Source of the DNA: Beijerinckiaceae bacterium
Lineage (GTDB): Bacteria; Pseudomonadota; Alphaproteobacteria; Rhizobiales; Beijerinckiaceae
Assembly (NCBI GenBank): GCA_024304885.1
Contig: JALJOM010000003.1
Span: forward strand, 66,296 to 130,295
DNA: 64,000 nucleotides
Direction: 5' to 3'
Part shown: positions 26,615-63,100 of the stretch, in pieces
How the letters are laid out: each line of letters opens with the position of its first letter
Numbering within the stretch: position 1 is the first letter of the stretch
Made by a program: the position numbers and the translations under genes
Notes under the pieces: model-generated
The model's input: only the letters and a program-made list of their open reading frames with translations
Database searches by the model: none
What the model was told of the DNA's origin: nothing

Positions 26615-27982
26615 ATGTCGAAAAGGGTCGGGTTCTCGTCGCCTGTCACGCGTCTCGCGCGGGGGCTCGGCTTGGCCGTCGCGGTCCTGCTCGCGTCCGG
26701 GCTGCATGCGCAGGAGGCTGTGCCCGCGGTGCGCGCCGGCGCCGATGCACGTCTCGTCGCGAGCTCCGTAGAGCTCGAGCAATTCGACGACCGGGCTCGG
26801 CTGGTGCTCGACCTCTCCTCGGCCGTGGATGCTTCTGCGTTCCTGCTTTCCGACCCCGATCGCGCGATCATCGATCTTCCCGAGATCGATTTCGCGGTGC
26901 CGCCTCCCACGGCGACGCCTCGGCCGCGATCCCGCCGTCGCGGCCTGGACCGGGCCAAGCCCGTGGGCCTCGTCGCCTCCTACCGGTTCGGTCGCCTCGG
27001 ACCCGGACGCTCGCGCGTGATCCTGAATCTCTCGGCGCCGGCACGGATCCAGCGCGCCGCTTGCGAGCCGGGGGGCGCCGGCCGCGGCTCGCGCCTCGTC
27101 GTCGAGCTGGCGAGAACCGATCCGGCGAGCTTTCGAGCCGCCGTGCAAGCTGCCCGCGCGACCATGGTCGGGGCTTGGACCGGGACGAGGACCAGCCCGC
27201 GGCCGGGCACGGACCAGAGCCCGGCCGCGCCATCCGGCAAGCCCGTCGTCGTGATCGATCCGGGCCATGGCGGAATCGACAGCGGCGCCATCGTCAACGG
27301 ATCGGTCGAGAAGGAGCTCGTGCTCGGCTTCGCCAAGTCGGTCGCGAGCAAGCTCGAGGCCGACGGAAGGCTCGCGGTCGTCCTCACCCGCCAGGACGAC
27401 ACCTTCGTTCCGCTGGCCGAGCGGGTTCGGCTCGCGCGCGAAAGCGGAGCCTTGCTCTTCGTCTCGATCCATGCCGACACCCTGGCCGAGGCGACCGACG
27501 TCGCGGGCGCGACCGTCTACACGGTGTCGGAACGTGCCTCCGATGCCACCGCGGCGCGTCTCGCCGAGAAGGAGAACAGCGCCGACGCCGCCGCCGGGCT
27601 CGACCAGCGGCCGGAGGCGAGCGAGGTCTCCACCATCTTACAGGATCTGACCCGGCGCGAGACGCGAGCCTTGAGCCACGTGTTCGCGCGAACGCTGCTG
27701 ACCTATTGGAAGGTCGCCGGGCGGCTGAACAAGAACCCGCAGCGCTCGGCGGGCTTCCTGGTCCTGAAGGCGCCGGACGTGCCTTCGGTTCTGCTCGAGC
27801 TCGGCTATCTCACGAACCGGAGGGACGACCAGGCCCTGTCCTCGTCGGAATGGCGCGACGCGACAGCGACCCGGGTCGCCGAGGCGATCACCGCATTTCT
27901 CGTCGCGCGGGAGAGCTCCGTCGCTTCGACCGCGCCGTCCCGCGGCGGCGCCGAGGAGGCCCCGATCGGCGCCAAGCCGTAA
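26615..27982 (+). CDS. amiC: N-acetylmuramoyl-L-alanine amidase, AmiC type
   Basis: It cleaves the amide bond between MurNAc and the stem peptide in the periplasm and so helps separate daughter cells. The 455-residue product has a signal peptide (residues 1-33, cleavage near LHAQ), an AMIN domain (about 45-170) that targets the septum or cell wall, and an Amidase_3 zinc hydrolase domain (about 215-435). The catalytic motifs are VIDPGHGGIDSGAI, SVEKELVLGFA, FVSIHAD and VLLELGYLTNR. An insertion between the second and third motifs resembles the regulatory helix that blocks the active site in septal amidases. Divergent from rne. Confidence 0.93.
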   Translation: MSKRVGFSSPVTRLARGLGLAVAVLLASGLHAQEAVPAVRAGADARLVASSVELEQFDDRARLVLDLSSAVDASAFLLSDPDRAIIDLPEIDFAVPPPTATPRPRSRRRGLDRAKPVGLVASYRFGRLGPGRSRVILNLSAPARIQRAACEPGGAGRGSRLVVELARTDPASFRAAVQAARATMVGAWTGTRTSPRPGTDQSPAAPSGKPVVVIDPGHGGIDSGAIVNGSVEKELVLGFAKSVASKLEADGRLAVVLTRQDDTFVPLAERVRLARESGALLFVSIHADTLAEATDVAGATVYTVSERASDATAARLAEKENSADAAAGLDQRPEASEVSTILQDLTRRETRALSHVFARTLLTYWKVAGRLNKNPQRSAGFLVLKAPDVPSVLLELGYLTNRRDDQALSSSEWRDATATRVAEAITAFLVARESSVASTAPSRGGAEEAPIGAKP

Positions 27983-27991
27983 CCCCCGGCC

Positions 27992-28018
27992 CGACCGCGG
28001 AGCGCTCGCCTGCGGTCG
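27992..28018. terminator. Hairpin between convergent genes
   Basis: CGACCGC pairs with GCGGTCG across a 13-base loop, in the 61-base space between the 3' ends of amiC and the convergent PmoD-like gene. There is no T tract, so it may only act as a weak bidirectional terminator. Confidence 0.35.
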
Positions 28019-28043
28019 CCACCAAGGGGGGAGGCCGATGGCG

Positions 28044-28628
28044 TCAGCCGCTCGTCGGCTGCGGCTTCCTGCGGCGCTCGCCGCGGAAATAGAAGAAGGC
28101 GGCCACGGCGAGCACGAGGACGGCCCCGACCGGAACATAGACCCATTTCTCGACCCCGCTCGAGATGGTCATGACATGCGTCGCCGCCATTTCCATCGGA
28201 CCGTCCCTGAGGGTGACGAGGAGCGCATATTGGCCGGGAGAGGCGAGATCTACCGCGAATGTGGTGACCCCGGTCGGATAGCGCTGCGGCGGGAGATGCG
28301 CGAGCGTGACGGGATCGGGCGTGGTGCCGTCGCCCGTCACGAGCTTGATCTCGGTCGTCATGTCGCGAATTTCCGGCGACACGGCATCGAGTGTGATCGA
28401 GATCCTCCCGGTCCCGGGGATCTCCGCGCAGAGCTCCTCGAGGACGCCGCTCGAGGGATGGTAGGCGGCGACATGCATCTCGTGCATGCCGCCGACCATC
28501 AGCGGGCACGTATTGTTGGGGTTGCCATGATGCTCGTGGCCGGAGCCCTGGGCTTGCGCCTGTCCCACGAGCAACAGAGCCGAAAGCATCGCCATCGAAC
28601 CGATCGATCGGAATTCAGCTAGCCGCAC
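28044..28628 (-). CDS. Membrane-anchored periplasmic protein divergent from pmoC (possible PmoD/AmoD-type)
   Basis: The 194-residue product has a signal peptide (MLSALLLVGQAQAQ), then GHEHHGNPNN, a periplasmic domain of about 130 residues, and one C-terminal membrane helix (VYVPVGAVLVLAVAAFF) with a short basic tail. The domain begins TCPLMVGGMHEMHVAAYHP and continues ELCAEIPGTG, ITLDAV and IRDMTTEI. The same pattern occurs in the protein after pmoB, so the two are paralogues. The Met/His/Cys-rich start suggests copper binding. Membrane-anchored PmoD/AmoD proteins of similar layout accompany pmo and amo operons, and this could be a member, but I cannot confirm it from sequence alone. The GTG start is favoured by a GGAGGA site five bases away. 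Confidence 0.65.
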   Translation of the reverse strand: MRLAEFRSIGSMAMLSALLLVGQAQAQGSGHEHHGNPNNTCPLMVGGMHEMHVAAYHPSSGVLEELCAEIPGTGRISITLDAVSPEIRDMTTEIKLVTGDGTTPDPVTLAHLPPQRYPTGVTTFAVDLASPGQYALLVTLRDGPMEMAATHVMTISSGVEKWVYVPVGAVLVLAVAAFFYFRGERRRKPQPTSG

Positions 28629-28638
28629 CTCATCCTCC
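28629..28638 (-). promoter_or_regulatory. Ribosome binding site fixing a GTG start
   Basis: GGAGGATGAG lies directly before the GTG at 28628. No comparable site precedes the in-frame ATG codons 11 and 13 codons further in. This supports the longer signal peptide (MRLAEFRSIGSMAM). Confidence 0.6.
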
Positions 28639-28895
28639 ACGAGAAGCCTGTCCCGCCGGGATCCCGAATCCCGGTCGCCTCGATCCGGCGTGAAGCGGAC
28701 GCCGAGGCGTGTCCCCTCCGCCGGGAAGCGCCGCAATCTGCCATCTCGGGACGGGCTCGGCAATCATTGCGATCGGCAGGGTCTCGGGGTCCGTCTCGGG
28801 ACCGGCGCCGGCCCGGTCCTGCCCGCGTCGGCGCGACGACAGGACTGGACAAAACCTACCCGTTCGGGCGAGAGGCGACCCCACCTGACCGAATA

Positions 28896-28924
28896 TTGTC
28901 GCCGATCGTACAGCGTTCTAATCG
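28896..28924 (+). promoter_or_regulatory. Candidate sigma-70-like promoter of pmoCAB
   Basis: TTGTCG (28896-28901) and TAATCG (28919-28924) are spaced by exactly 17 bases and lie about 155 bases before the pmoC start. The match to TTGACA/TATAAT is moderate. No binding site for a copper- or methane-responsive regulator could be recognised in the 450-base divergent region. Confidence 0.35.
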
Positions 28925-29080
28925 TAGCCTCGGATGATCGACCAATCCGTCGTCATCTCGGCCGAAAGGCTGTGGAGAGACGACCGGCACAAACCGTTCC
29001 GCGAACAAGGTTACGGCTGGGCCGGGGTCCGATCCCAAGAAGCTTGGAAACAAAACCCCAAGATCCGAGAGGCACATCTC

Positions 29081-29860
29081 ATGAGTCTAGTAACCGAAAC
29101 AGCAGGTGCGAGCGCCCTAGAGGCCTCCGCCGCGAAGCCCATCTGGGACTGGAAGCCCAGCATCTTCTTCAGCGCGGCGATCTGCGTCTACTACGTCATC
29201 GTCCGGATCTACGAGCAATACTACGGCTGGTACGCCGGGCTCGACTCGTTCGATCCCAAGTTCAACCAGTATTGGATGACGATCCTGTGGACCGAGCTGC
29301 CCCTCGAGGCGGTCTCCTTCCTCGGCCTCTGCGGCTACCTCTGGAAGACCCGCGACAAGGACCTCGCCAACGTCGCTCCGCGCGAGGAGCTGCGCCGGTT
29401 CTACTATCTCCTCGGCTGGATTCTCGTCTATGCCGTGGCGATCTACTGGGGCGCCAGCTACTTCACCGAGCAGGACGGCACCTGGCACCAGACCGTCATC
29501 CGTGACAACGACTTCACGCCGAGCCACATCATCGAGTTCTACATGAGCTACCCGATGTACATCGTCGTGGGCGTCGGCGGCTTCATGTTCGCTCGGACCC
29601 GTCTCCCGATCTTCGCCTTGAAGGGCTACTCGATCTCCTACCTGCTGCTCTTCATCGGCCCGTTCATGATCTTCCCGAACGTCGCGCTCAACGAGTGGGG
29701 CCACACGTTCTGGTTCATGGAAGAGCTGTTCGTGGCGCCGCTGCACTGGATGTTCGTGTTCTTCGGCTGGTTCGCGCTCGCCGTGTTCGGCGTGTCGCTG
29801 CAGATCCTCGGCCGCATGGGCGAGCTGTTCGAGAGCCAGAAGGACCTCTGCGGTCTCTGA
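29081..29860 (+). CDS. pmoC: Particulate methane monooxygenase subunit C
   Basis: PmoC is a membrane subunit of the copper enzyme that oxidises methane to methanol. The 259-residue product has six to seven helices and the family signature RDNDFTPSHIIEFYMSYP. The metal-site residues match those of Methylococcus: D132, H136 and H149 (equivalent to D156, H160, H173), and N204, H208 and H222 for the second site described in this subunit. NEWGHTFWFMEELFVAPLHW is intact. The ATG after AGAGG at 29081 gives the canonical length; the open frame extends 49 codons upstream without family similarity. It is the first gene of a C-A-B operon, the order of pmo/amo and not of pxmABC. Confidence 0.96.
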   Translation: MSLVTETAGASALEASAAKPIWDWKPSIFFSAAICVYYVIVRIYEQYYGWYAGLDSFDPKFNQYWMTILWTELPLEAVSFLGLCGYLWKTRDKDLANVAPREELRRFYYLLGWILVYAVAIYWGASYFTEQDGTWHQTVIRDNDFTPSHIIEFYMSYPMYIVVGVGGFMFARTRLPIFALKGYSISYLLLFIGPFMIFPNVALNEWGHTFWFMEELFVAPLHWMFVFFGWFALAVFGVSLQILGRMGELFESQKDLCGL

Positions 29861-30062
29861 GATCGGGATGCAATCGGCGGGAGTTCGGTGATGCTCGCCT
29901 GAGGTCACCGGACCGCGCATCCGACCGCGGAATCGGCCGCTCGCAGGGAACCCGAGGTTCGGCGAACGGCCGGCTCGAAGCGGCCGGGTCGGAATCGAGA
30001 CCCAACTTCTACTCGCTCCACTTGTCCGGTCCACGAGGCCGGGGAGCATCAGGGAGGACAGT

Positions 30063-30935
30063 ATGTCGTTTTTGTTCAGAAAGGCGCCAAAGATCGGCGG
30101 CACACCGGTGGTGCCCGAATCGATCTCCGCGTCCCCCGGAATCGAGGGGGGAGCCGGCGCGTCCAAGAAAGTGATGGCAGCGGACGCAGGCGCCGCCATC
30201 GCGGGAAGCCCGTTCAATTCCAAGGCCGAAGCCGCCGGGCTCATCAAGGTGGCCGATTGGCTCCTCTTGGTATCCCTCTTCTTCATCATCCTCGGCGGAT
30301 ATCACATCCACTTCATGCTCACCGCCGGCGACTGGGACTTCTGGGTCGACTGGAAGGATCGCCGCTTCTGGCCGACGGTCATCCCGATCATGGGCGTGAC
30401 CTTCATCGCCGCGTGCCAGTCCTATTTCTGGCTGAACTTCAAGCTGCCGTTCGGCGGCACGATCGCGGTGCTCGGGCTGCTCTTCGGTGAATGGGTCAAC
30501 CGCTACAACAATTTCTGGCAGTGGACCTGGTTCCCGATCAACCTCGTGTTCCCGACCCAGCTGATCCCGGGCGCGCTCTTCATCGACTGCGTGCTCCTGC
30601 TCAGCAACAGCTACATCATCACGGCGGTGGTGGGCGCGCTGGGATGGGGCCTTCTCATGTATCCCAGCAACTGGCAGATCCTCGCTCAGTTCCATCAGGG
30701 CGTCGAGGTCCAGGGCCTTCTGATGAGCGTCGCCGACCTGATCGGCTTCGAGTATGTGCGCACCTCGACCCCCGAGTACATCCGCATGGTCGAGCGCGGT
30801 ACGATGCGTACGTTCGGTAAGGACGTCGTGCCGGTCGCAGCGTTCTTCTCGGGCTTCGTGTCGATGATCGTCTACTTCGTCTGGTGGTATGTCGGTCTCA
30901 TGTTCTCGACCACCAAGTACACGAAGTCGTTCTGA
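30063..30935 (+). CDS. pmoA: Particulate methane monooxygenase subunit A, with N-terminal extension
   Basis: PmoA is a membrane subunit and the usual marker gene for methane oxidisers. From residue about 49 the sequence is classic: PFNSKAEAAG, GGYHIHFMLTAGDWDFWVDW, KLPFGGTIAVLGLLFGEW, SADLIGFEYVRTS-type text and PEYIRMVERGTMRTFGK. The C-terminal half resembles alphaproteobacterial (type II/USC-alpha-like) PmoA more than the gammaproteobacterial form. The product is 290 residues, while family members are near 250; the extra 37 or so residues form an Ala/Gly/Pro-rich leader. GGGAGGACAGT directly before the ATG at 30063 supports the long form. An internal ATG at 30174 would give a normal 253-residue protein but lacks a clear ribosome binding site. 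Confidence 0.95.
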   Translation: MSFLFRKAPKIGGTPVVPESISASPGIEGGAGASKKVMAADAGAAIAGSPFNSKAEAAGLIKVADWLLLVSLFFIILGGYHIHFMLTAGDWDFWVDWKDRRFWPTVIPIMGVTFIAACQSYFWLNFKLPFGGTIAVLGLLFGEWVNRYNNFWQWTWFPINLVFPTQLIPGALFIDCVLLLSNSYIITAVVGALGWGLLMYPSNWQILAQFHQGVEVQGLLMSVADLIGFEYVRTSTPEYIRMVERGTMRTFGKDVVPVAAFFSGFVSMIVYFVWWYVGLMFSTTKYTKSF

Positions 30936-30991
30936 TTGCCGGCCCGCGTAATCGAGCGGCGATAGGATCGTCAGAAGAACTAGAACAAGAC

Positions 30992-31006
30992 CACGGCTAA
31001 GCCGTG
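30992..31006 (+). promoter_or_regulatory. Perfect hairpin in the pmoA-pmoB spacer
   Basis: CACGGCTAAGCCGTG is a perfect inverted repeat lying just before the pmoB ribosome binding site (GGGAGAGAG). It could protect pmoCA mRNA or mark a processing site between pmoA and pmoB, giving different subunit mRNA levels. The function is inferred. Confidence 0.5.
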
Positions 31007-31019
31007 TGGGAGAGAGTAC

Positions 31020-32303
31020 ATGTTGAAGACAATGCTCAGTGCAGTGACGCGAGGCGCGAAACGCCACGCAACGCGGCTGGTCGCTCTGGGGCTTGCCGCT
31101 GGCGTCGCGGCCGTCGCGGGTGTCGCCTCGGTCGGGACCGCCGAAGCCCATGGTGAGAAGTCGCAGGCCGCCTTCCTCCGCATGCGTACCCTCGGCTGGT
31201 ACGACATGAAGTGGTCGAAGAAGGTCGTGAACGTCAACGAGGAGTTCGAGATCACCGGCAAGCTGCGCATCATGAATGCGTGGCCGGTCGCGGTCAGGAC
31301 CCCGGAAACCGCCTTCCTCAATGTCGGCGAGCCCGGCCCGGTCGCCGTCAGAAAGGTCGCGATCGTCGGCGGTCAGTTCCAGCCCCGCTCCCTCGCTCTG
31401 GAAGTGGGTAAGGAATACGAGTTCAGGATCGTGCTCAAGGCCCGTCGTGAAGGCCGTTGGCACATCCACAGCCAGCTCAGCGTCGAGACCGGCGGCCCGA
31501 TTCCCGGACCGGGCGAATGGATCGAGATCAAGGGCAGCATGAACGACTTCCGGAATCCCGTGACGCTCCTCAACGGGACCACGATCGATCTCGAGACCTA
31601 CGGAATCGGCGAGATCTATATGTGGCACCTCTTGTGGTTCATCCTCGGATTCGCCTGGCTCTTCTACTGGTTCAGCCAGAAGGGCTTCGTCGGGCGGTTC
31701 CTCTGGGTCGCCTCGGGACGTGGCGAAGAGCTGATCGGCCCGAACGAGATCCGGATCGGTGTCGGTGCCCTCGTCGGCGTGTTGCTCGTCGTCGGCATTA
31801 CCTGGGGCTGGGCCGCGGCCAAGTACCCGAACACGATCCCTCTGCAGGCCGGTAACCTGAAGAACATCGTGCCGATCGCGGACACCGACGCGCCGATCAA
31901 GATCAAGTACGAAGGCGGTGACTACAAGGTGCCGGGACGTGAGCTCGCGGCCACCTACACGATCACCAACAACGCCAAGGAGCCGATCCGGATCGGCGAG
32001 TTCATCACCGCCGGGTTGCGGTTCCTGAACCCCGACGTCTATACCCAGAAGGTCGACTATCCCGACTACATCCTGGCCGACAAGGGTCTGTTGCTGAGCG
32101 ACAACACCCCGATCGGACCTGGCGAGACGCGCAAGATCACCATCACCGCCAAGGACGCGCGGTGGGACATCGAGCGTCTCTCGGGCCTGTCCTACGACGT
32201 CGACAGCTCGTTCGCCGGTATCCTGTTCTTCTTCACGCCGAGCGGCACGCGCTACCATCAGGAAGTCAGCGGGTTCGTCCTGCCGACCTTCATCTCGGGC
32301 TGA
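31020..32303 (+). CDS. pmoB: Particulate methane monooxygenase subunit B
   Basis: PmoB is the largely periplasmic subunit with two cupredoxin-like domains joined by two membrane helices. The 427-residue product has a long signal sequence ending TAEA-HGEKSQ, so the mature N-terminus would be His. The copper ligands of the CuB site are all present: H44, H148 and H150 (equivalent to H33, H137, H139), in AHGEKSQ and RWHIHSQ. MWHLLWFILGFAWLFYWF is the first helix and the second is around VGALVGVLLVVGITWGW. The C-terminal domain ends SGTRYHQEVSGFVLPTF. Together with intact pmoC and pmoA sites, this predicts a functional enzyme. Confidence 0.96.
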   Translation: MLKTMLSAVTRGAKRHATRLVALGLAAGVAAVAGVASVGTAEAHGEKSQAAFLRMRTLGWYDMKWSKKVVNVNEEFEITGKLRIMNAWPVAVRTPETAFLNVGEPGPVAVRKVAIVGGQFQPRSLALEVGKEYEFRIVLKARREGRWHIHSQLSVETGGPIPGPGEWIEIKGSMNDFRNPVTLLNGTTIDLETYGIGEIYMWHLLWFILGFAWLFYWFSQKGFVGRFLWVASGRGEELIGPNEIRIGVGALVGVLLVVGITWGWAAAKYPNTIPLQAGNLKNIVPIADTDAPIKIKYEGGDYKVPGRELAATYTITNNAKEPIRIGEFITAGLRFLNPDVYTQKVDYPDYILADKGLLLSDNTPIGPGETRKITITAKDARWDIERLSGLSYDVDSSFAGILFFFTPSGTRYHQEVSGFVLPTFISG

Positions 32304-32351
32304 GCGGGCTCTGCTGCAAGGCATAAGCGAAATGGTCTCGTAAGAAGACTG

Positions 32352-32383
32352 CCCCCGCCGGAGCCGAAGGGCCTCGGCGGGGG
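32352..32383 (+). terminator. Terminator or attenuator after pmoB
   Basis: CCCCCGCCG (32352-32360) pairs with CGGCGGGGG (32375-32383), followed by TTAATGTTT. The strong stem lies between pmoB and the PmoD-like gene only 24 bases before the latter's start. It probably ends most pmoCAB transcripts and leaves partial read-through for the downstream gene. Confidence 0.6.
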
Positions 32384-32407
32384 TTAATGTTTCGAGGAGG
32401 ACGATTC

Positions 32408-33013
32408 ATGATCCGCCGAGCCATGTGCACGGCAGGCCTGGTCATGCCGCTTCTTGCATCCACCGCACTCGGGCATGGCGGTGTCAGCATCGAGAACGAT
32501 CTTTGCATCCTCAGGGTCGGCCCGAGCACGGTCCATTTCACCGGCTACCAGCCGGCACGCAGCTACAAGGAGTTCTGCGAGGATATTCCCCATACGGGGA
32601 TGACGATCATCGTCCTGGACCTGGTCGATTCCGACTTGCGCAACATGGAGACGGAAGTTCGCGTCGTGCGAGATCCGGGCGGTGGCGGGGTCCCGATCGG
32701 CCGGAGGATGTTGAGCGAGGCGGAGATCAAGAGCAGCGAGGTTCTCGCGGCGACCGAAGCCTACATGCCTCCGTCCCTCTATCCGAATGGAACCCTCAAG
32801 TTCGAGCACGACTTCAAGAATGCCGGTCAATATATCGGTATCGTCACGGTCCGGAACGAGCACGGCCAGGAATACGTCTCTCAGTTCCCCTTCATCGTCG
32901 GTCCGGATTGGAGCAAGATCGTCCCCTTCTATAGCCTGATCGCTTTGGCCGTCGGGCTCTGCGGCTTTCTCGTCTGGAAGCTCGGCTGGCAGAGGAGGTT
33001 CAAGACCAAGTAG
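32408..33013 (+). CDS. Membrane-anchored periplasmic protein downstream of pmoB (possible PmoD/AmoD-type)
   Basis: The 201-residue product has a signal peptide (residues 1-22, cleavage near ALG-HGG), a periplasmic domain, and a C-terminal membrane helix (YSLIALAVGLCGFLVWKL) with a basic tail. ENDLCILRVGPSTVHFTGYQP, EFCEDIPHTG, IIVLDLVDSDL and RNMETEV align with the protein encoded divergently upstream of pmoC, as does YPNGTLKFEHDF...AGQY. The shared Cys pair and His could hold a metal. Position directly after pmoB fits pmoD/amoD, whose products have the same topology. Family assignment is an inference. GAGGAGGACGATTC before the ATG is a strong ribosome binding site. Confidence 0.7.
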   Translation: MIRRAMCTAGLVMPLLASTALGHGGVSIENDLCILRVGPSTVHFTGYQPARSYKEFCEDIPHTGMTIIVLDLVDSDLRNMETEVRVVRDPGGGGVPIGRRMLSEAEIKSSEVLAATEAYMPPSLYPNGTLKFEHDFKNAGQYIGIVTVRNEHGQEYVSQFPFIVGPDWSKIVPFYSLIALAVGLCGFLVWKLGWQRRFKTK

Positions 33014-33533: not shown

Positions 33534-34073
33534 ATGCAGATCAAACTCCCGTTCAACATCAAGCTTCCGACGGATCTCGAGAAGATCGTCCTCATCCTTC
33601 GCGCCGAGCTCGGTCCGGATTCCCTGCCTGTCTCCCAGCCCTTGCTCGGGGCCTGCCTCGCGGCCTATGCCTTCGGCCTGTTCATGAACTTGGTCCTCTA
33701 CAAGTCCATCCCTCAAGCCATCGGCATCGCAGTGACCGGGGTCGTGCTGCTCGTGGTGCTCACTGGCGGCAGCCTCTACCTGCTCGGTTACGTCAAGCGA
33801 CTGCACCAGACCCTCACGGCCCTCGCCGGAACCGGCGCTCTCGTCGCGATCGTGACCTTCGGCGTCCGTCTCGTCCTCACCATCGGCATGCCCGAGGAAG
33901 TCGTGACCGTGAATCTCATGCGGTTCCTGATGCTTCCCTTGTTCTTGTGGAATGTCCTCGTCTTCATGGCGATCCTGCGGATCGCATTCTCCGGGCGATT
34001 GATCCCCGGACTTGCCGTGGCGGCCGCCTACATGGTCATGCTCGAGTTCCTCGTTCCGCTCTATTTCGGCTGA
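33534..34073 (+). CDS. Small polytopic membrane protein near the pmo operon, unknown function
   Basis: I do not recognise this 179-residue protein. After an amphipathic N-terminus (MQIKLPFNIKLPTDLEKIVL) it has five hydrophobic segments, roughly at residues 40-60, 63-85, 95-115, 128-148 and 155-175. It has no obvious catalytic motif. It lies 520 bases after the PmoD-like gene on the same strand, and codon use agrees with the neighbours. A link to methane oxidation is only suggested by location. The Met at MQIKLPF is chosen because the upstream part of the frame is Arg-rich shadow sequence. Confidence 0.7.
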   Translation: MQIKLPFNIKLPTDLEKIVLILRAELGPDSLPVSQPLLGACLAAYAFGLFMNLVLYKSIPQAIGIAVTGVVLLVVLTGGSLYLLGYVKRLHQTLTALAGTGALVAIVTFGVRLVLTIGMPEEVVTVNLMRFLMLPLFLWNVLVFMAILRIAFSGRLIPGLAVAAAYMVMLEFLVPLYFG

Positions 34074-57526: not shown

Positions 57527-58128
57527 CTCGTGTCTCCTTGTCTGGCCTCACGATAGGACCCGTCCTATCGTCTGTTGGTTAATGCAAGGTTCTGTCAACT
57601 TTGATCCAAGCTTCACGAAATGCGTTGCATTCGAGCAATCGGTCCGGATGGTTAATCGCCAGTTGATGGCGGCAATGGGGCATAGGCACAGCCTTCTGCC
57701 ACGATTGCAATTCTTTTCGACGCTCGACGTCGCTCCGGACCGGAGCTGGATTTTACACGCAAGTCGAGCAACTTCCCGCGCACCGGCGCCCCGAGCATCT
57801 TCCGGCGAACCGAGCACCGGCTCGAGGGGCGAAAATGCGACGAATCGAGAACGTCGAGCCGCTTTCCGATTCGCCTGGATCGGACGGTACTCCAGTTCGC
57901 CGGAAATCGCGCGAAGGACAGGGATATTGCCAGTGGACAGATCGCAAGTTTCAGTCGCCGCGTCGGAGCCCGAGACGCCGGCAGCCGCGGTGACCTCGAG
58001 AGCGATCCGGCGCACGCCTCGATCCCGGCGAGCTGCTGGATCGAGGCGCCCCGTCGATCGAGTCCGACGGCTTTCGTGCGGCGGCTCCTTCGGCATAGGA
58101 TCGCTGTGCGACGTCCGGAGCGCATCCC
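57527..58128. other. Intergenic region upstream of pal
   Basis: I see no gene in these 600 bases. It includes a degenerate family A fragment at 57857-57913 (GAGCCGCTTTCCGATTCGCC with CGCCGGAAATCGCG). A low-G+C patch near 57555-57625 (CGTCTGTTGGTTAATGCAAG) probably contains the pal promoter. Confidence 0.4.
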
Positions 58129-58914
58129 ATGCCGTACAAAGCGACCTGCTTTCTTCTCGCCTCCCTGGCATTCCTGCTCATGGCGCCGGCTCGCGCGCAG
58201 GACATGATGCGCGGTGTCGATCTCTCCGGGCCGAGGTTCACGAGCGCGGAGACGACCCGGGGTGAGATCGAAGCAGCCATCGCCGCGGCGCGCGGGCAAC
58301 CGATCGATCTCGCAGGAAAAAGCCTCAACGGGCTCGATCTCTCCGGGCTCGATCTCCGCGGCGCCAACCTCCGCGCCGCACGGCTGAACAAGGCACGGCT
58401 TTCGGGCGCGCAGCTCGAGGGGGCCGTTCTCGACCAGATCTTTGCGATCGGCGCGGACTTCTCGGCCGCCGACCTCCGCAGCGCGAGCCTCTTTGGAAGC
58501 CAGATGCGCGAGGCGCGGCTCGACGGCGCGGATCTCTCGGGAGCCCGGATCACGGCCGATCTCACCCGCGCGAGCTTGCGCGAGGCGAAGCTGCGCGGCG
58601 CGAATCTCGCCGCCGACATGAAGAACCAATCCATGGGCCTGATGCGCGGGGTCCTGAAGTCGGCTCGGGCTCGTGGCGCGGACTTCGAGGGCGCGAACCT
58701 GGCCTCGACGGATCTCGAGTTCGCCGATCTCTCGGGCGCGAACTTCACCAGAGCCTCTCTCGTGAACGCACTGTGCGGCGGCGCCGATTTGCGTGGGGCG
58801 GTGCTCGACGCGGCCGATTTCACCGGCGCGGATCTCACCTCGACGCGGATCGACCCCGGGAAAAAGGATGCTTTCGCAGGCGCGAAGAATCTCGCGCGGG
58901 CGCTCGAGGAATGA
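58129..58914 (+). CDS. Exported pentapeptide-repeat protein
   Basis: The 261-residue product has a signal peptide (CFLLASLAFLLMAPARAQ, cleavage near residue 23) and then about 35 pentapeptide repeats of the A(D/N)LXX type (LDLSGLDLRGANLRAARLNK, GADFEGANLASTDLEFADLS), interrupted by MKNQSMGLMRGVL around residue 165. Such proteins fold into a right-handed quadrilateral beta helix. Unlike the cytoplasmic DNA-mimic members, this one is secreted. The target is unknown. It stands 600 bases after the divergent pal gene and before the metal-related cluster. Confidence 0.85.
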   Translation: MPYKATCFLLASLAFLLMAPARAQDMMRGVDLSGPRFTSAETTRGEIEAAIAAARGQPIDLAGKSLNGLDLSGLDLRGANLRAARLNKARLSGAQLEGAVLDQIFAIGADFSAADLRSASLFGSQMREARLDGADLSGARITADLTRASLREAKLRGANLAADMKNQSMGLMRGVLKSARARGADFEGANLASTDLEFADLSGANFTRASLVNALCGGADLRGAVLDAADFTGADLTSTRIDPGKKDAFAGAKNLARALEE

Positions 58915-59077
58915 AGAATGATGTGTGGCTCTTCTGCCGCAGGACGTCGTGAACTTCTCGACGTGGTGAGCGCATGCTTGCGCGACCTCCGGTTGCGCGC
59001 ATAGGAATAGCGACGATCGCGCAGCGCCGCTTTGCGGTGCAGGTTGTCGCCAAGAAAACTCGAGCTCGGCAAGTCCC

Positions 59078-59443
59078 ATGCGTCGCGGCCCCCTCGGAGC
59101 CATCATCTTCGGCCTCGCGCTGCTGATGCAGCTGCTCGTGCCGGCTATGGCGGCGCAGGGGCATGTGGTCGGTTCGGCTAGTCACTCGGTGGTCTGCGTC
59201 GACGCGGGCTCGAGCGACAGCGCGGACGGCTCGAGCTCGGGCAGGGCACCACATCACGAGCACTGCGGGCTATGCCAAATCGTGTGTAGCCCGGTGGGTC
59301 TGCTCGAGTTCCTGTCGGCCTGGATCTCGCTCGGCTCGCCCACAGAAAGCAGGGTTGCTGCCTGGACGCTCGAGCTCGAGCGCAAGGCCCGATTCGGCTT
59401 CGACCAGCACGAGGTCCCGCGCGGACCGCCCTCTCTCGCCTGA
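59078..59443 (+). CDS. DUF2946-type small membrane/exported protein
   Basis: The 121-residue product has an N-terminal hydrophobic segment (GAIIFGLALLMQLLVPAMA) and a metal-ligand-like motif HHEHCGLCQIVCSP in the middle, as in DUF2946 proteins, which often sit next to TonB receptors and copper genes. The His/Cys arrangement suggests copper binding. It is the first gene of a plus-strand run with a TonB receptor, a BNR protein and a TlpA-like protein. Function in metal handling is inferred. Confidence 0.75.
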   Translation: MRRGPLGAIIFGLALLMQLLVPAMAAQGHVVGSASHSVVCVDAGSSDSADGSSSGRAPHHEHCGLCQIVCSPVGLLEFLSAWISLGSPTESRVAAWTLELERKARFGFDQHEVPRGPPSLA

Positions 59444-59515
59444 ACGCAACGTACCGAGCCCGACCGGTGCTGCCGGCCGGAATCCTTTGGCGTCCTTCAG
59501 CCGAGATCCCGAACC

Positions 59516-61816
59516 ATGTCTCTCGCCCACCGCGCCTGCAAGCGCGCGCCCCTGCTTGCCGCTCTCATGGCGACCACCTCGCTCGTACCCCACGGCGCGA
59601 AGGCGCAGGATGCGCAAGCGGTAACGCTTCCCGTCATCGATGTCTCGACGCCCCTTACCTTGCTCTACCAGCAGCCGACCGGCCAGACCGAGACGACGGT
59701 CCCACGGCAGAATGTCCTCACCAATACCAAGGCCTTCTCGACCTGGGAGGCGCTGCGCGACAGCCCCGGCGTCACCTTGAAGCAGGGAAATGGGGCGCGC
59801 GACGTCGGCATCTCGATCCGTGGCTCGAATGCGCGGAACGGGTTCGGGATCCGAAATATCGTCATCTACGAGGACGGCTTCCCGGTCACCCAACCGGACG
59901 GGCTTTCGCGCGGTGACCTGATCGATCTCCATGCCTATAGCGGAATCGATGTCATCAGAGGCCCGTCCTCGGCCCTCTTCGGCAATTACGCGACCGGCGG
60001 CGCGGTCAATTTCCGCCTGCGGCGCGGTTCCGAGATCAACGGGCTCGACGTCGGCACCGAGGGTGGCAGCTTCGGCTACCTGAACAATTACTTCGCCTAC
60101 GGCAGCCACGGCGAGAACTGGGACTCGTCTGTGTTCTTCAGCAACATCATCGGGAACGGGCCGACGAATCACAACCTGTTCAACACCCAGACCCTGAACT
60201 TCCTCATCTCCTACGAGCCGACGCCGAACGACCGATTCTTCGTCAAGGGCATCAATAATACACTCTACAATGACCTCTCGTTCCGGCTGAGCCTCAACCA
60301 GTTCTACCAGAATCCGTACCAGACGAATTGCTACGACGCGGCGTCCTCTCCTCTCGGCTGTGCGACCCAGAACTTCCTGGTGAACGGTCGCAATGGAGCT
60401 CGTGTACCGCTGACCGCCTTCCAGTCCGGAGCCAAGCGCGAGGATCGCCGCTCGATTCTCGGTTTGCGCTGGGAACACGACATCGACAACGATACTGTAT
60501 TCCGGGTGCAAGCTGTTCTCGACGACAAGCGCATCAACCAACCGACGGGAGTGACCTCTGCGATCGGCGGCGAGCCGGCATTCAACTTGGTCACCGACAT
60601 CACGGGCAAGGGAAAGCTATTCGGGCTGGACACCCTCTATTTCGGCGGCCTCTACGCTAATATGGAAAGCCAGACCAGCTACTCCTACTTCGTGAAGCCG
60701 GGCGGCAACGCGAATCTCGGCAGCCTGAACACGGTGACCCCGTCACGTCAATCGAACTGGGGCCTGCGTAGCCGAGCCGAGGTGCAGCTCACCGATACAT
60801 TGACGGCAGTGGCCGGTATCGCCGCCGAATATACGACGCTCGTCGGGACTCAGCTTGCCTATGCCTATCCGGCCACCGGCCCTCTCGCGGGATCGGTCAC
60901 GACGAGGACGACGGAGGCCAACAACTTCTATCTGAACGTCGCCCCTGAAGGCGCGTTGCTGTGGCGGCCGGTTCAGGAATGGCAGGTGCGTGGTCGCGTC
61001 GGGACCGGCTACGGCACCCCTAACGTCGGCAACCTTTTCACGCTCCCGGACGGAAGCCCCGGCAACAATACCCAGCTCAAGACGCAAACCAATGTCGGGT
61101 TCGACCTCGGCGTCACCTATTCGCCGGCACCCAACATCTTCCTCGACGTCACCGGATTCTACGAGTTCTTCTCCAACGAGATCGTGTCGCAGGTCGTCAT
61201 CAACCCGACCAGGGGTCAGCAGTCCTTTTTCTTCAATGCCCCGAAGTCGGAGCACCGCGGCGTCGAGGTCCTAGGCGAATGGCAGTTCCTGCCCGGGTGG
61301 AAATTCCGCGCGATCTATACATATCTGAACCAAATCTATACCGAGTATACCGAAAATCTCGCGTTTACGCCCGTCGGGCAGGCTTCACGGCTCGCGTCGT
61401 TCAATCGTGCCGGCAACTGGATTCCGGGCGTCGTCCCGAACAGCCTCACGCTCCGCCTCGGCTATGACGTTCCCGATGGTCCTCTGCAGGGCCTCGGCGC
61501 ATTCGCGGAGTATTTTAACAACGACTCCTATTACATCGACAACGGTAACCTGCTGAGGCTGCCCGGCTACCAAATCGTCAACCTGAACTTCCATTACAAC
61601 ACCGAACTCACGAACAACTTCTTCCACAAGATCGGAGGATTCTTCGAAATTCGAAACATAGGCAACGCGACCTATATCGCCGGAGGGAACAATATTACCA
61701 ATACACTGAATGCACAGGGAGTGCAGAATGGGGCCGCCGTCCTCGCCAACTCGACGGGGTCGATCTATGCCGGCTTCCCGCGGACCTTCGTCGGTGGCCT
61801 CAAGCTGACATTCTGA
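59516..61816 (+). CDS. TonB-dependent outer-membrane receptor
   Basis: The 766-residue product is a gated beta-barrel that takes up a scarce ligand with energy from TonB. It has a signal peptide (residues 1-30, ending AKA-QD), a plug domain (about 60-190: ALRDSPGVTLKQGNGARDVG, IDVIRGPSSALFGNYATGGA) and a 22-strand barrel ending KLTF with a terminal Phe. The closest visible layout is the FecA/copper (OprC/NosA) or siderophore receptor group, but the ligand cannot be read from sequence. No N-terminal signalling domain is present. Neighbours with Cys/His-rich motifs favour a metal ligand. Confidence 0.93.
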   Translation: MSLAHRACKRAPLLAALMATTSLVPHGAKAQDAQAVTLPVIDVSTPLTLLYQQPTGQTETTVPRQNVLTNTKAFSTWEALRDSPGVTLKQGNGARDVGISIRGSNARNGFGIRNIVIYEDGFPVTQPDGLSRGDLIDLHAYSGIDVIRGPSSALFGNYATGGAVNFRLRRGSEINGLDVGTEGGSFGYLNNYFAYGSHGENWDSSVFFSNIIGNGPTNHNLFNTQTLNFLISYEPTPNDRFFVKGINNTLYNDLSFRLSLNQFYQNPYQTNCYDAASSPLGCATQNFLVNGRNGARVPLTAFQSGAKREDRRSILGLRWEHDIDNDTVFRVQAVLDDKRINQPTGVTSAIGGEPAFNLVTDITGKGKLFGLDTLYFGGLYANMESQTSYSYFVKPGGNANLGSLNTVTPSRQSNWGLRSRAEVQLTDTLTAVAGIAAEYTTLVGTQLAYAYPATGPLAGSVTTRTTEANNFYLNVAPEGALLWRPVQEWQVRGRVGTGYGTPNVGNLFTLPDGSPGNNTQLKTQTNVGFDLGVTYSPAPNIFLDVTGFYEFFSNEIVSQVVINPTRGQQSFFFNAPKSEHRGVEVLGEWQFLPGWKFRAIYTYLNQIYTEYTENLAFTPVGQASRLASFNRAGNWIPGVVPNSLTLRLGYDVPDGPLQGLGAFAEYFNNDSYYIDNGNLLRLPGYQIVNLNFHYNTELTNNFFHKIGGFFEIRNIGNATYIAGGNNITNTLNAQGVQNGAAVLANSTGSIYAGFPRTFVGGLKLTF

Positions 61817-61876
61817 TAAATTTCGAGGCTTCGGTGCCACCCGAGCCTCGAAGGTCGTCCGTTGGAGAACACGACG

Positions 61877-63100
61877 ATGTCGCATGCTCTCGCTCTGATT
61901 TTCGGAACGCTCGCTCTCGTCGCGGGCGTCCCGGCGCAGGCTCAGATGACCCACGAGCACAAGGCCGCCGAGACCTGCACGGATCTCGCGCTCGCCTGCG
62001 CTGCCAGCGTGACGCCGACCTTCGCGGCGGACGGCACCTTGTGGATCGTGGCGCGGACGAGCGACCGCGTCTTCGTGGCGAAATCCGCCGATCGCGGCAA
62101 GAGCTTCTCCGAGCCGGTCGCCGTCACGCCCGAGCCGATGCCGCTCGACACGGGTCCCGACTCGCGGCCGAAGATCGTCGTCGATCGCAAGGGACGCGTC
62201 GTCGTTGCCTTCGCCGTGCGCGACAAGAAGTTCAAGGGACGGGTCTTCGTCAGCCGGTCGAGCGACAAGGGCAAGAGCTTCTCGCCGCCGGATCCGATCA
62301 CCGCGAGCGACGAGAGCCAGAGATTCGAGACCCTCACCCTCGATGCAGACGGGCGAGTCTTCGCGGCCTGGATCGACAAGCGCAATCGTGCCGCGGCGCG
62401 AGAGACGGGGCCGGAGAAAGGCGAGGCGCCCAAAGGTGCGGCGCTCGCCTTCGCCTGGTCGGGCGATCACGGCGCGACCTTCTCGGAGGCTCGGATCGCG
62501 CAGGATCAGACCTGCGAATGCTGCCGGATCGCCGTGGCCTTTGCGGGCCCGGGGCGGCCCGTGGTCGTCTTCCGCAATATCTTCGAGGGGTCGGTGCGCG
62601 ACCACGCGATCGTGACCTTTGCCGATCGCGAGACGCCTGGCCCGGTGCACCGCGTGAGCACCGATGATTGGGCGATCGAGTCCTGCCCGCATCACGGCCC
62701 GAGCCTCGCCGTCGCCAAGAACGGCACCTACCATGTCGCCTGGTTCACCAAGGGACGCGCGCGGCAAGGCCTCTTCTACGCCCGCTCGAGCGATGCCGGC
62801 GCCACCTTCTCCGATCCGCTTCCGATCGGCCGGCCCGAGACCGCGCCGGGCCGCCCGAGCCTTCTTTCGGTCGGCGGCACGGCCTATCTCGCCTGGAAGG
62901 AATTCGACGGCGCCGTGACCAGCATCACGGTCATGACCTCGCACGACGACGGCGCGCATTGGAGCACGCCGCGCGCAATCGCCACGACGAGCGAGGACTC
63001 CGACCACCCGATTCTCGTCGGGGACGGACGCCGCGCTTATCTGTCGTGGCAGGCACGCGAGGACGGCTATCGCCTGCTTCCGCTCGGAGACGCATCATGA
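61877..63100 (+). CDS. Exported BNR/sialidase-like repeat protein with Cys/His motifs
   Basis: The 407-residue product has a signal peptide (ALALIFGTLALVAGVPAQA) and a six-bladed propeller with Asp-box motifs (SADRGKSFS, SSDKGKSFS, SGDHGATFS, SSDAGATFS, SHDDGAHWS). The conserved Arg triad and Asp of true sialidases are not evident. Unusual features are MTHEHKAAETCTDLALAC at the mature N-terminus, TCECCRIAVAF in the middle and ESCPHHGPSLAV; these may bind metal or form disulphides handled by the next gene. The ATG at 61877 is preceded by GGAG; an in-frame TTG five codons earlier is possible. Its stop overlaps the next start. Confidence 0.8.
   Translation: MSHALALIFGTLALVAGVPAQAQMTHEHKAAETCTDLALACAASVTPTFAADGTLWIVARTSDRVFVAKSADRGKSFSEPVAVTPEPMPLDTGPDSRPKIVVDRKGRVVVAFAVRDKKFKGRVFVSRSSDKGKSFSPPDPITASDESQRFETLTLDADGRVFAAWIDKRNRAAARETGPEKGEAPKGAALAFAWSGDHGATFSEARIAQDQTCECCRIAVAFAGPGRPVVVFRNIFEGSVRDHAIVTFADRETPGPVHRVSTDDWAIESCPHHGPSLAVAKNGTYHVAWFTKGRARQGLFYARSSDAGATFSDPLPIGRPETAPGRPSLLSVGGTAYLAWKEFDGAVTSITVMTSHDDGAHWSTPRAIATTSEDSDHPILVGDGRRAYLSWQAREDGYRLLPLGDAS

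Follow-up and report, generated by a model that had tools for sequence, protein, structure and literature searches.

Background

Among characterised PmoD proteins, those of two Methylocystis strains that carry the motif Cx7MxHxnC form a CuA centre, which is abolished when its Met or His is changed to Ala. The genes of a second class, Cx8MxnC, lie close to those for multicopper oxidase, PCuAC, and ABC transporters, and the one tested protein of this class bound copper and formed no CuA. A specific role for PmoD is described as unproven even in model strains (all from Fisher et al. 2018, PMC6189053). The PmoD of Methylocystis sp. Rockwell (Met49242_1452, PDB 6cpd) is encoded in its operon and is of the CuA type, and the beta-proteobacterial AmoE and AmoD offer a case in which two PmoD-family genes adjoin one monooxygenase operon, in tandem and downstream of it.

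Here, we analysed a 64,000-nucleotide stretch of a Beijerinckiaceae contig (hereafter the window), which contains a pmoCAB operon with a PmoD-family gene on each side. Our overall reading, to which we give about an even chance, is that the pmoCAB-pmoD operon of a soil methanotroph of the Methylocapsa lineage, whose genome matches the MO3_YZ.1 MAG, has come to lie beside a divergent and long-separate PmoD gene, and that the two encode putative copper proteins.

Results and discussion

Two PmoD-family proteins flank the operon

An earlier note on the window had described two mutually homologous, membrane-anchored proteins around pmoCAB and had taken them for a duplicated copper-delivery pair; both open reading frames were found where it had placed them (Table 1).

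Table 1. Features of the pmo locus, in window coordinates
Feature	Position	Strand	Basis
P0001, PmoD-family, Methylocapsa 'MHEM' subfamily	28044..28628	-	sequence, trees, AlphaFold model
Divergent intergenic region, 452 bp	28629..29080		between P0001 gene and pmoC
ACCTACC, -227 from pmoC	28854..28860	+	comparison with operon pmoC upstreams of the genus
Promoter-like signature TTGT-N17-TCTAAT, -185 from pmoC	28896..28922	+	comparison of pmoC upstreams
pmoC	29081..29860	+	Pfam, NCBIfam
pmoA, 873 bp	30063..30935	+	Pfam, NCBIfam
pmoB	31020..32303	+	Pfam, NCBIfam
P0002, in-operon PmoD	32408..33013	+	motif Cx9HxnC (CILRVGPSTVHF), trees, model
Hydrophobic protein, no Pfam family, start codon picked by eye	33534..34073	+	conserved neighbour of pmo

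P0001 and P0002 are PmoD/AmoD-family proteins with a predicted membrane anchor, and they belong to different subfamilies. They matched each other in pairwise BLASTP (E 6e-19, 31% over 148 columns), and hhalign aligned the P0001 subfamily (10 rows) with the P0002-type alignment (15 rows) far better than random (probability 100, E 6e-41). Neither had a usable family in Pfam or NCBIfam, and the only significant PDB match by sequence for both was 6cpd, with E-values over the periplasmic domain of 4.3e-10 for P0001 (6.8e-22 with its subfamily profile) and 2.6e-25 for P0002. The same structure was the best Foldseek match of both AlphaFold models (target TM 0.82 for P0001 and 0.88 for P0002), each of which has an N-terminal helix, a beta-sandwich of cupredoxin-like fold as in 6cpd, and a single C-terminal helix; signal peptides were read from the sequence and the model's N-terminal helix rather than from a dedicated predictor. 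The common topology and the PmoD identity that the earlier note had proposed were borne out, as were the motifs that it had found in both proteins (CxLxVG, YxP, ExCxxIPxTG, LDxV, R(D/N)MxTE, YPxG, and GQY) and the two, HEHHG and MHEMH, that occur in P0001 and are absent from P0002.

The P0001 gene starts with GTG at 28628, preceded by GGAGG, and encodes a predicted signal peptide, the cupredoxin-like domain, and then the C-terminal helix and a basic tail. Its domain holds C41/C67, M44, HEHHG, MHEMH, and M145xM147, and residues C41, M44, H49, E50, C67, M145, and M147 are invariant in all ten subfamily members. In P0002, the conserved Cys pair is C33/C57.

Both proteins resemble Rockwell PmoD in fold, in two Cys, in an N-terminal signal and C-terminal helix, and in adjacency to pmoCAB, but P0002 lacks the CuA Met (Cx9H), while P0001 has a loop that is one residue longer, with MHEMH, and falls in another clade. 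The P0001 motif (CPLMVGGMHEMH) contains no Cys-x7-Met-x-His CuA ligand set. The C-x8-M of the Cx8MxnC class is found in six of the nine P0001 orthologs, with C-x9-M-H in P0001 itself because of a one-residue insertion. Unlike that class, P0001 has a His after the Met, and its HEHHG takes the place of a Met-rich MDMNM(N/D)M run present in eight of the nine orthologs.

A conserved, probable operon promoter region between the divergent genes

With the start of pmoC refined to 29081, the divergent gap measures 452 bp. Within its pmoC-proximal half, some stretches match the operon upstreams of M. acidiphila and M. palsarum (75 columns at 77% for M. acidiphila, E 2e-6 in a small comparison), and no match was seen in the P0001-proximal part. 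We compared pmoC upstreams after leaving out 3 of 19 pmoC matches as truncated or partial, with 2 others unreadable and the operon pmoC of G538, G608, G621, and G600 not included. In this set, the promoter-like signature occurred in five of six operon upstreams (the window and four other genomes), while all 11 upstreams of lone pmoC lacked it. The ACCTACC element recurs at -224 to -227 before three other operon pmoC of the genus, in two of them within a palindrome, ACCTACC/GGTAGGT. No promoter emerged from a scan for the sigma-70 consensus, in which chance alone would give 1.0.

Because the genes are divergent and the conserved operon promoter region lies between them, P0001 is likely transcribed separately from the operon, in agreement with the separate regulation that had been suggested before. 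An operon-specific promoter signature together with an operator-like element would also provide a handle on pmo regulation.

The P0001 subfamily is tied to pMMO by genome and mostly not by position

PmoD was present in all 51 pmoA-bearing genomes of a family sample of 397 genomes, where PmoD was seen in 60 genomes and 9 of these had no visible pmoA; within the genus, it occurs in exactly the 10 of 15 genomes that have pmoA. The window's genome has four PmoD, three pmoC, and one pmoA genes. Every one of the ten pmoA-bearing Methylocapsa-genus genomes has a single member of the P0001 subfamily and the five without pmoA have none, and hence the subfamily is tied to pMMO at the genome level. By position the picture differs: in the DNA around the ortholog, 9/9 other genomes had no pmo gene. 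The earlier note had named, as an outcome against its reading, homologues of the upstream gene lying mostly away from pmo/amo loci, and this is the case for the upstream subfamily (9/10). In G538 and G608 only 1.5-1.9 kb separate the ortholog from a contig end on one side, and in G538 and G600 a contig begins inside the pmo operon, so the unlinked position in these three is judged from the other side and from conserved neighbours (9 kb were examined on each side in G600). Further, 62 of 85 distinct pmo/amo loci surveyed offered 3 kb or more of DNA upstream (23 had less), and at none of the 62 did a divergent PmoD gene lie upstream of pmoC.

The P0001 gene sits within a tRNA-Trp/dsbA/rne/amiC neighbourhood, as does its ortholog in G588, where pmo is 1.07 Mb away. 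From this common neighbourhood, it was most likely pmoCAB-pmoD that moved next to P0001, probably keeping its own promoter. The juxtaposition, unique in our survey, is most likely derived; for the direction of the move we rely on a single PmoB tree, where the window forms a long branch.

As to function, the two most likely represent different copper-holding proteins for pMMO that are transcribed separately. P0002 would be made together with pMMO, and its Cys pair and His may hold copper beside PmoB. P0001, expressed from a promoter of its own, would offer a site richer in His, Met, and Cys (HEHHG, M44, MHEMH, and MxM) and might buffer periplasmic copper, hand it to P0002 or PmoB, or serve in general copper handling. 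We count in favour of a copper-holding P0001 that the gene context of its orthologs resembles that of Cx8MxnC PmoDs, with ABC-transporter genes adjoining in six of nine relatives and a multicopper-oxidase gene too in four of these. P0001 itself adjoins pmo, and a search of its genome for such a cluster, for which the permease was the only query, found none (best match 26% identical over a partial query, E 8e-8, taken as unrelated), a point that we count against our reading.

It is possible, though we rather doubt it, that the adjacency has no functional meaning, i.e., that the operon landed beside a general periplasmic copper or redox protein that is not specific to pMMO. The neighbourhood that P0001 has in common with G588, the promoter retained by the operon, and the pmo-free surroundings of all nine other orthologs fit this account, and we count the location of those orthologs and the lack of a pmo promoter on P0001 against a role as pMMO partner; the confinement of the subfamily to pmoA-bearing genomes of the genus (10/10 vs 0/5) speaks for such a role. 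A PmoD that is linked to pmo in one species and unlinked in nine relatives would make it possible to compare regulation and function cleanly.

Old relatives rather than a duplicated pair

Two trees were built, the first from 74 domain rows out of 105 (those removed by hand were mostly near-duplicates) and the second with 30 of 95 matches placed, namely those with loci, none of which joined the P0001 clade. The ten P0001 members from across the genus form a clade with support of 100/100 in one tree and 100/99 in the other, and in both it excludes P0002, AmoE, and AmoD. P0001 and P0002 both fall outside the beta-proteobacterial AmoE and AmoD clades; P0002 groups with other Methylocapsa in-operon PmoDs in one tree (91/85), and the other gave no resolution there. 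On the basis of both trees, we reject AmoE as the identity of P0001, and likewise a recent local duplication.

The earlier note's model, an amoE/amoD-like duplicated pair split across the two sides of the operon with its labour divided, could draw on the common fold and motifs and on Nitrosospira, in which two tandem PmoD-family genes follow amoCAB. Given the old and separate subfamily of P0001, we consider this model highly improbable. P0001 also differs from the tandem, downstream AmoE and AmoD in its upstream, divergent position. Judged from the trees, P0001 and P0002 are old relatives and not a fresh duplicate; most likely they were brought together by rearrangement.

A possible pMMO lineage without CuA-type PmoD

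The CuA-forming PmoDs of the two Methylocystis strains (PMC6189053) speak for a reading in which the PmoDs pass electrons to pMMO by way of a CuA centre, but we give it very little credence here. Neither P0001 nor P0002 has Cx7MxH, and none of the 37 Methylocapsa PmoD rows whose motif could be read shows it (of 40 rows, three without a readable motif; in some cases a broken gene contributes its two pieces as separate rows, and row L050, misparsed by the pattern, is Cx8M by eye). The P0002 stretch CILRVGPSTVH has Thr at the Met position and lacks the full CuA ligand set, and loss of that Met kills CuA in the characterised protein.

More speculatively, Methylocapsa and MO3 (reported to be pMMO-only) might run pMMO without a CuA-type PmoD, using AmoD-like and Methylocapsa-specific Met/His-rich PmoDs. 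In MO3, the second of these would have been drawn to the pmo locus to load copper as a dedicated partner under separate regulation, and its Met-rich arm would have changed into a His-rich one; we regard this whole scenario as rather unlikely. A genus living by pMMO in this way would offer a natural test of whether pMMO can do without CuA.

The junction and its surroundings

Exact repeats in the three pmoC could have joined a wrong upstream flank to pmoCAB during assembly: the operon pmoC has exact 263- and 326-bp stretches in common with two orphan pmoC, both longer than the 150-base reads that PMC9145241 gives for the likely source, MO3_YZ.1, and in the G628 MAG, a relative, the operon upstream is without the signature and matches, over 41 bp, the flank of an orphan pmoC in the window's genome. 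We hold such an artefact to be very improbable, and a swap with an orphan pmoC unlikely, since the window's pmoC upstream has the signature of operon copies and the M. acidiphila match described above, and no 20-mer is repeated on the same strand of the window at 27900-29300. Only short repeats were found at 28550-29100.

Dispersed repeats of ~100 bp occur near the locus, none of them at the junction. Downstream of P0002, the gene for the hydrophobic protein is kept beside pmo in Methylocapsa, and in Skermanella and G212 it lies on the other side of pmoC.

Two PmoD-family proteins on either side of pmoCAB

The pmoCAB operon of the window, which sits on contig C3 of a 3.82-Mb genome in 8 contigs, lies between two proteins, namely P0001, encoded upstream in divergent orientation, and P0002, encoded in the operon downstream of pmoB. 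Sequence searches against PDB returned PmoD (6cpd) as the only significant relative of each (E 4.3e-10 for P0001 and 2.6e-25 for P0002), and the two matched one another by pairwise BLASTP (E 6e-19) and by hhalign comparison of P0001-type and P0002-type alignments (E 6e-41). AlphaFold models built from 27-row alignments (mean pLDDT 85.5 and 86.2, respectively) both comprised an N-terminal helix, a beta-sandwich domain, and a C-terminal helix, and Foldseek placed 6cpd first for each. Hence, both are PmoD-family proteins, and the earlier note was right that two mutually homologous membrane-anchored proteins bracket pmoCAB.

The genome carries two pmoC beyond the operon copy and a single pmoA (873 bp), whose closest named relative is that of Methylocapsa acidiphila (76% identity), with M. 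palsarum and M. aurea also among the relatives. One pmo operon, two orphan pmoC, and an 873-bp pmoA have been described for the MAG MO3_YZ.1 in a paper whose main text does not mention pmoD (PMC9145241), and Methylocapsa-like genomes are reported to hold a single pmoCAB plus one to three orphan pmoC (PMC10672854).

Features of the pmo region and of orphan pmoC (window positions unless a fetched locus, L, is named)
Feature	Position	Strand	Length or assignment
P0001 ORF	28044-28628	minus	194 aa
ACCTACC element	28854-28860
TTGT-N17-TCTAAW signature	28896-28922
pmoC	29081-29860		Pfam and NCBIfam
pmoA	30063-30935		Pfam and NCBIfam
pmoB	31020-32303		Pfam and NCBIfam
P0002 ORF	32408-33013	plus	201 aa
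Hydrophobic protein	33534-34073		no Pfam family
Dispersed repeat copies	3556, 9521, 12464, 20838, 25573, 49367 and others		~100 bp
Two orphan pmoC of the genome, one near the PmoD P0003	L007 6494-7315 and 8545-9330; L137 7686-8576

P0001 belongs to an old, genus-wide subfamily

The earlier note had further suggested, with AmoE and AmoD in mind, that the two proteins are a duplicated copper-delivery pair, which neither the trees nor the gene neighborhoods bear out. In a phylogeny of 74 PmoD domains built with IQ-TREE, P0001 and nine others, one protein per other pmo-bearing genome of the genus, formed one clade (support 100/100) that held neither P0002 nor AmoE nor AmoD and stayed exclusive (100/99) in a second tree, to which Methylocystis, Methylosinus, and two other genera picked by similarity to the P0001 subfamily were added. 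P0002 grouped with Methylocapsa in-operon PmoDs in the first tree (91/85), a grouping without resolution in the second, and Nitrosospira AmoE and AmoD were placed apart from both proteins. Given these placements, P0001 and P0002 are two old paralogues, not a local duplication.

Further, pmoCAB was not found adjoining the P0001 ortholog in any of the nine other genomes. On single contigs the two lay 408 kb (M. acidiphila B2), 1.55 Mb (G562), and 1.07 Mb (G588) apart, six genomes had them on different contigs, and no pmo genes occurred within 9-19 kb around each ortholog (one side only 1.5-1.9 kb in G538 and G608). Among 85 distinct pmo/amo loci surveyed, a divergent upstream PmoD was present in 0 of the 62 CAB loci with at least 3 kb upstream of pmoC, and two loci had a same-strand upstream PmoD (L118 at 1.4 kb and L260 at 6.6 kb); the open-licence papers searched yielded no description of one in divergent orientation.

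Across a family sample of 397 genomes, pmoA (PF02461) was found in 51 and PmoD in 60, including all 51 with pmoA; the nine without a pmoA match were eight Methylocystis-like genomes and G546 (weak PmoD match, E 6e-4). Those eight (G443, G542, G611, G663, G688, G708, G718, and G727) had 4-8 PmoD matches each, perhaps with multicopy pmo operons lost in assembly. Within the window's genus, 10 of 15 genomes had pmoA, and exactly those 10 had PmoD and a P0001 ortholog.

Probable relocation of the pmo operon

Six of the nine relatives share a neighborhood around the P0001 ortholog, with GH25 and an ABC permease and ATPase in 6/6, FAD oxidase and tRNA-Trp in five each, and multicopper oxidase in four (named by Pfam, using a single representative per gene). 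In G588, tRNA-Trp is followed by dsbA, rne, and amiC, with an amiC-PmoD span of ~16 kb end to end. The window has tRNA-Trp (20238), dsbA (20978), rne (22085, assigned by eye), and amiC (26579), followed by P0001. P0001 thus occupies the same neighborhood as its orthologs, albeit on the side of amiC, and a search of the window's genome did not recover the ABC permease. Upstream of pmoC, M. acidiphila, M. palsarum, G562, and G588 have in common a conserved ORF, an M48 peptidase, and a solute symporter, none of which was matched by a window ORF. In a PmoB tree, which has the window row on a long branch, M. acidiphila and M. aurea fell outside the window's clade (100/97), so the simplest reading is that the pmo operon relocated within the lineage of the window.

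Alternatively, the assembler could have exchanged pmoC upstream flanks and so put the operon beside P0001, as the operon pmoC is identical to the two orphan pmoC over stretches of 263 and 326 bp. However, the signature TTGT-N17-TCTAAW, found 159-188 bp upstream of operon pmoC in G588, G562, M. palsarum, M. acidiphila, and the window (5/6 examined, the exception being the fragmentary MAG G628), was absent upstream of all 11 lone pmoC of the genus, taken with 1.5 kb of flank on each side and no pmoA motif therein. The window's pmoC upstream flank is thus operon-type, which makes a flank swap unlikely. ACCTACC lies ~40-65 bp further upstream (-224 to -227 from pmoC in 4/5 signature-bearing operons; palindromic in two relatives), and both elements form a candidate pmo regulatory site.

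In G628 (L214), the region upstream of the operon pmoC has a 41-bp match to the flank preceding orphan pmoC2 in the window's genome, a possible pmoC-repeat misassembly. One orphan pmoC of the window genome lies near another PmoD, P0003, which lacks known ligand motifs, and two regulators, LysR-type by eye; in G588, G562, and M. acidiphila, orphan pmoC have a PmoD directly after them.

Copper ligands and proposed roles

CuA formation requires the Cys, Met, and His of Cx7MxHxnC, the only class in which CuA was found and one that alpha-proteobacterial in-operon PmoDs are said to carry (Fisher et al. 2018, PMC6189053). Nine of ten Methylocystis/Methylosinus in-operon PmoDs fit this motif, as CMVMFGY(D/E)MIH; the misfit, Cx8M, belongs to one pmo copy of the Methylosinus-genus genome G577 (L116 4457-5200), which has another PmoD of CuA type. 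Cx7MxH occurred in 0/37 motif-readable Methylocapsa PmoD rows from ten genomes, so Methylocapsa departs from the rule; no mention of this absence was found in the open-licence papers searched. In-operon motifs there were Cx8M(F/Y), or Cx8MH in M. palsarum and M. aurea, and Cx9H in P0002, with Thr replacing Met, a loss with precedent in Methylacidiphilum PmoDs (PMC8764830); the fetched M. acidiphila pmo locus held no PmoD. The P0001 subfamily has invariant C41, M44, H49, E50, C67, M145, and M147. A Met-rich MDMNM(N/D)M run precedes the first Cys in 8/9 orthologs; P0001 has HEHHG at that position and MHEMH after the first Cys.

We propose that P0001 and P0002 would keep copper on the periplasmic side of the inner membrane, close to PmoB, with P0002 produced together with the operon and P0001, with its larger putative His/Met site, transcribed separately from a Methylocapsa-specific gene. 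The adjacency of P0001 and pmo may reflect dedicated service or may be incidental.

In four Methylocystis genomes (G238, G495, G567, and G617), a second PmoD with a Cx8MH motif is encoded ~10-11 kb away from pmoA, on the strand opposite the operon; as in the window, two PmoDs surround one pmo locus, here with a second one from a different subfamily. The hydrophobic protein is kept directly after pmoB/pmoD in Methylocapsa, and its homologs in Skermanella and G212 lie upstream of pmoC on the opposite strand (L198 12541-13284; L219 7793-8395). The dispersed repeat has inverted segments, with copies about 76-91% alike and many in the window and other genome stretches, and consecutive genes at window positions 58099-63097 encode a pentapeptide-repeat protein, a TonB-dependent receptor, and a BNR-repeat protein.
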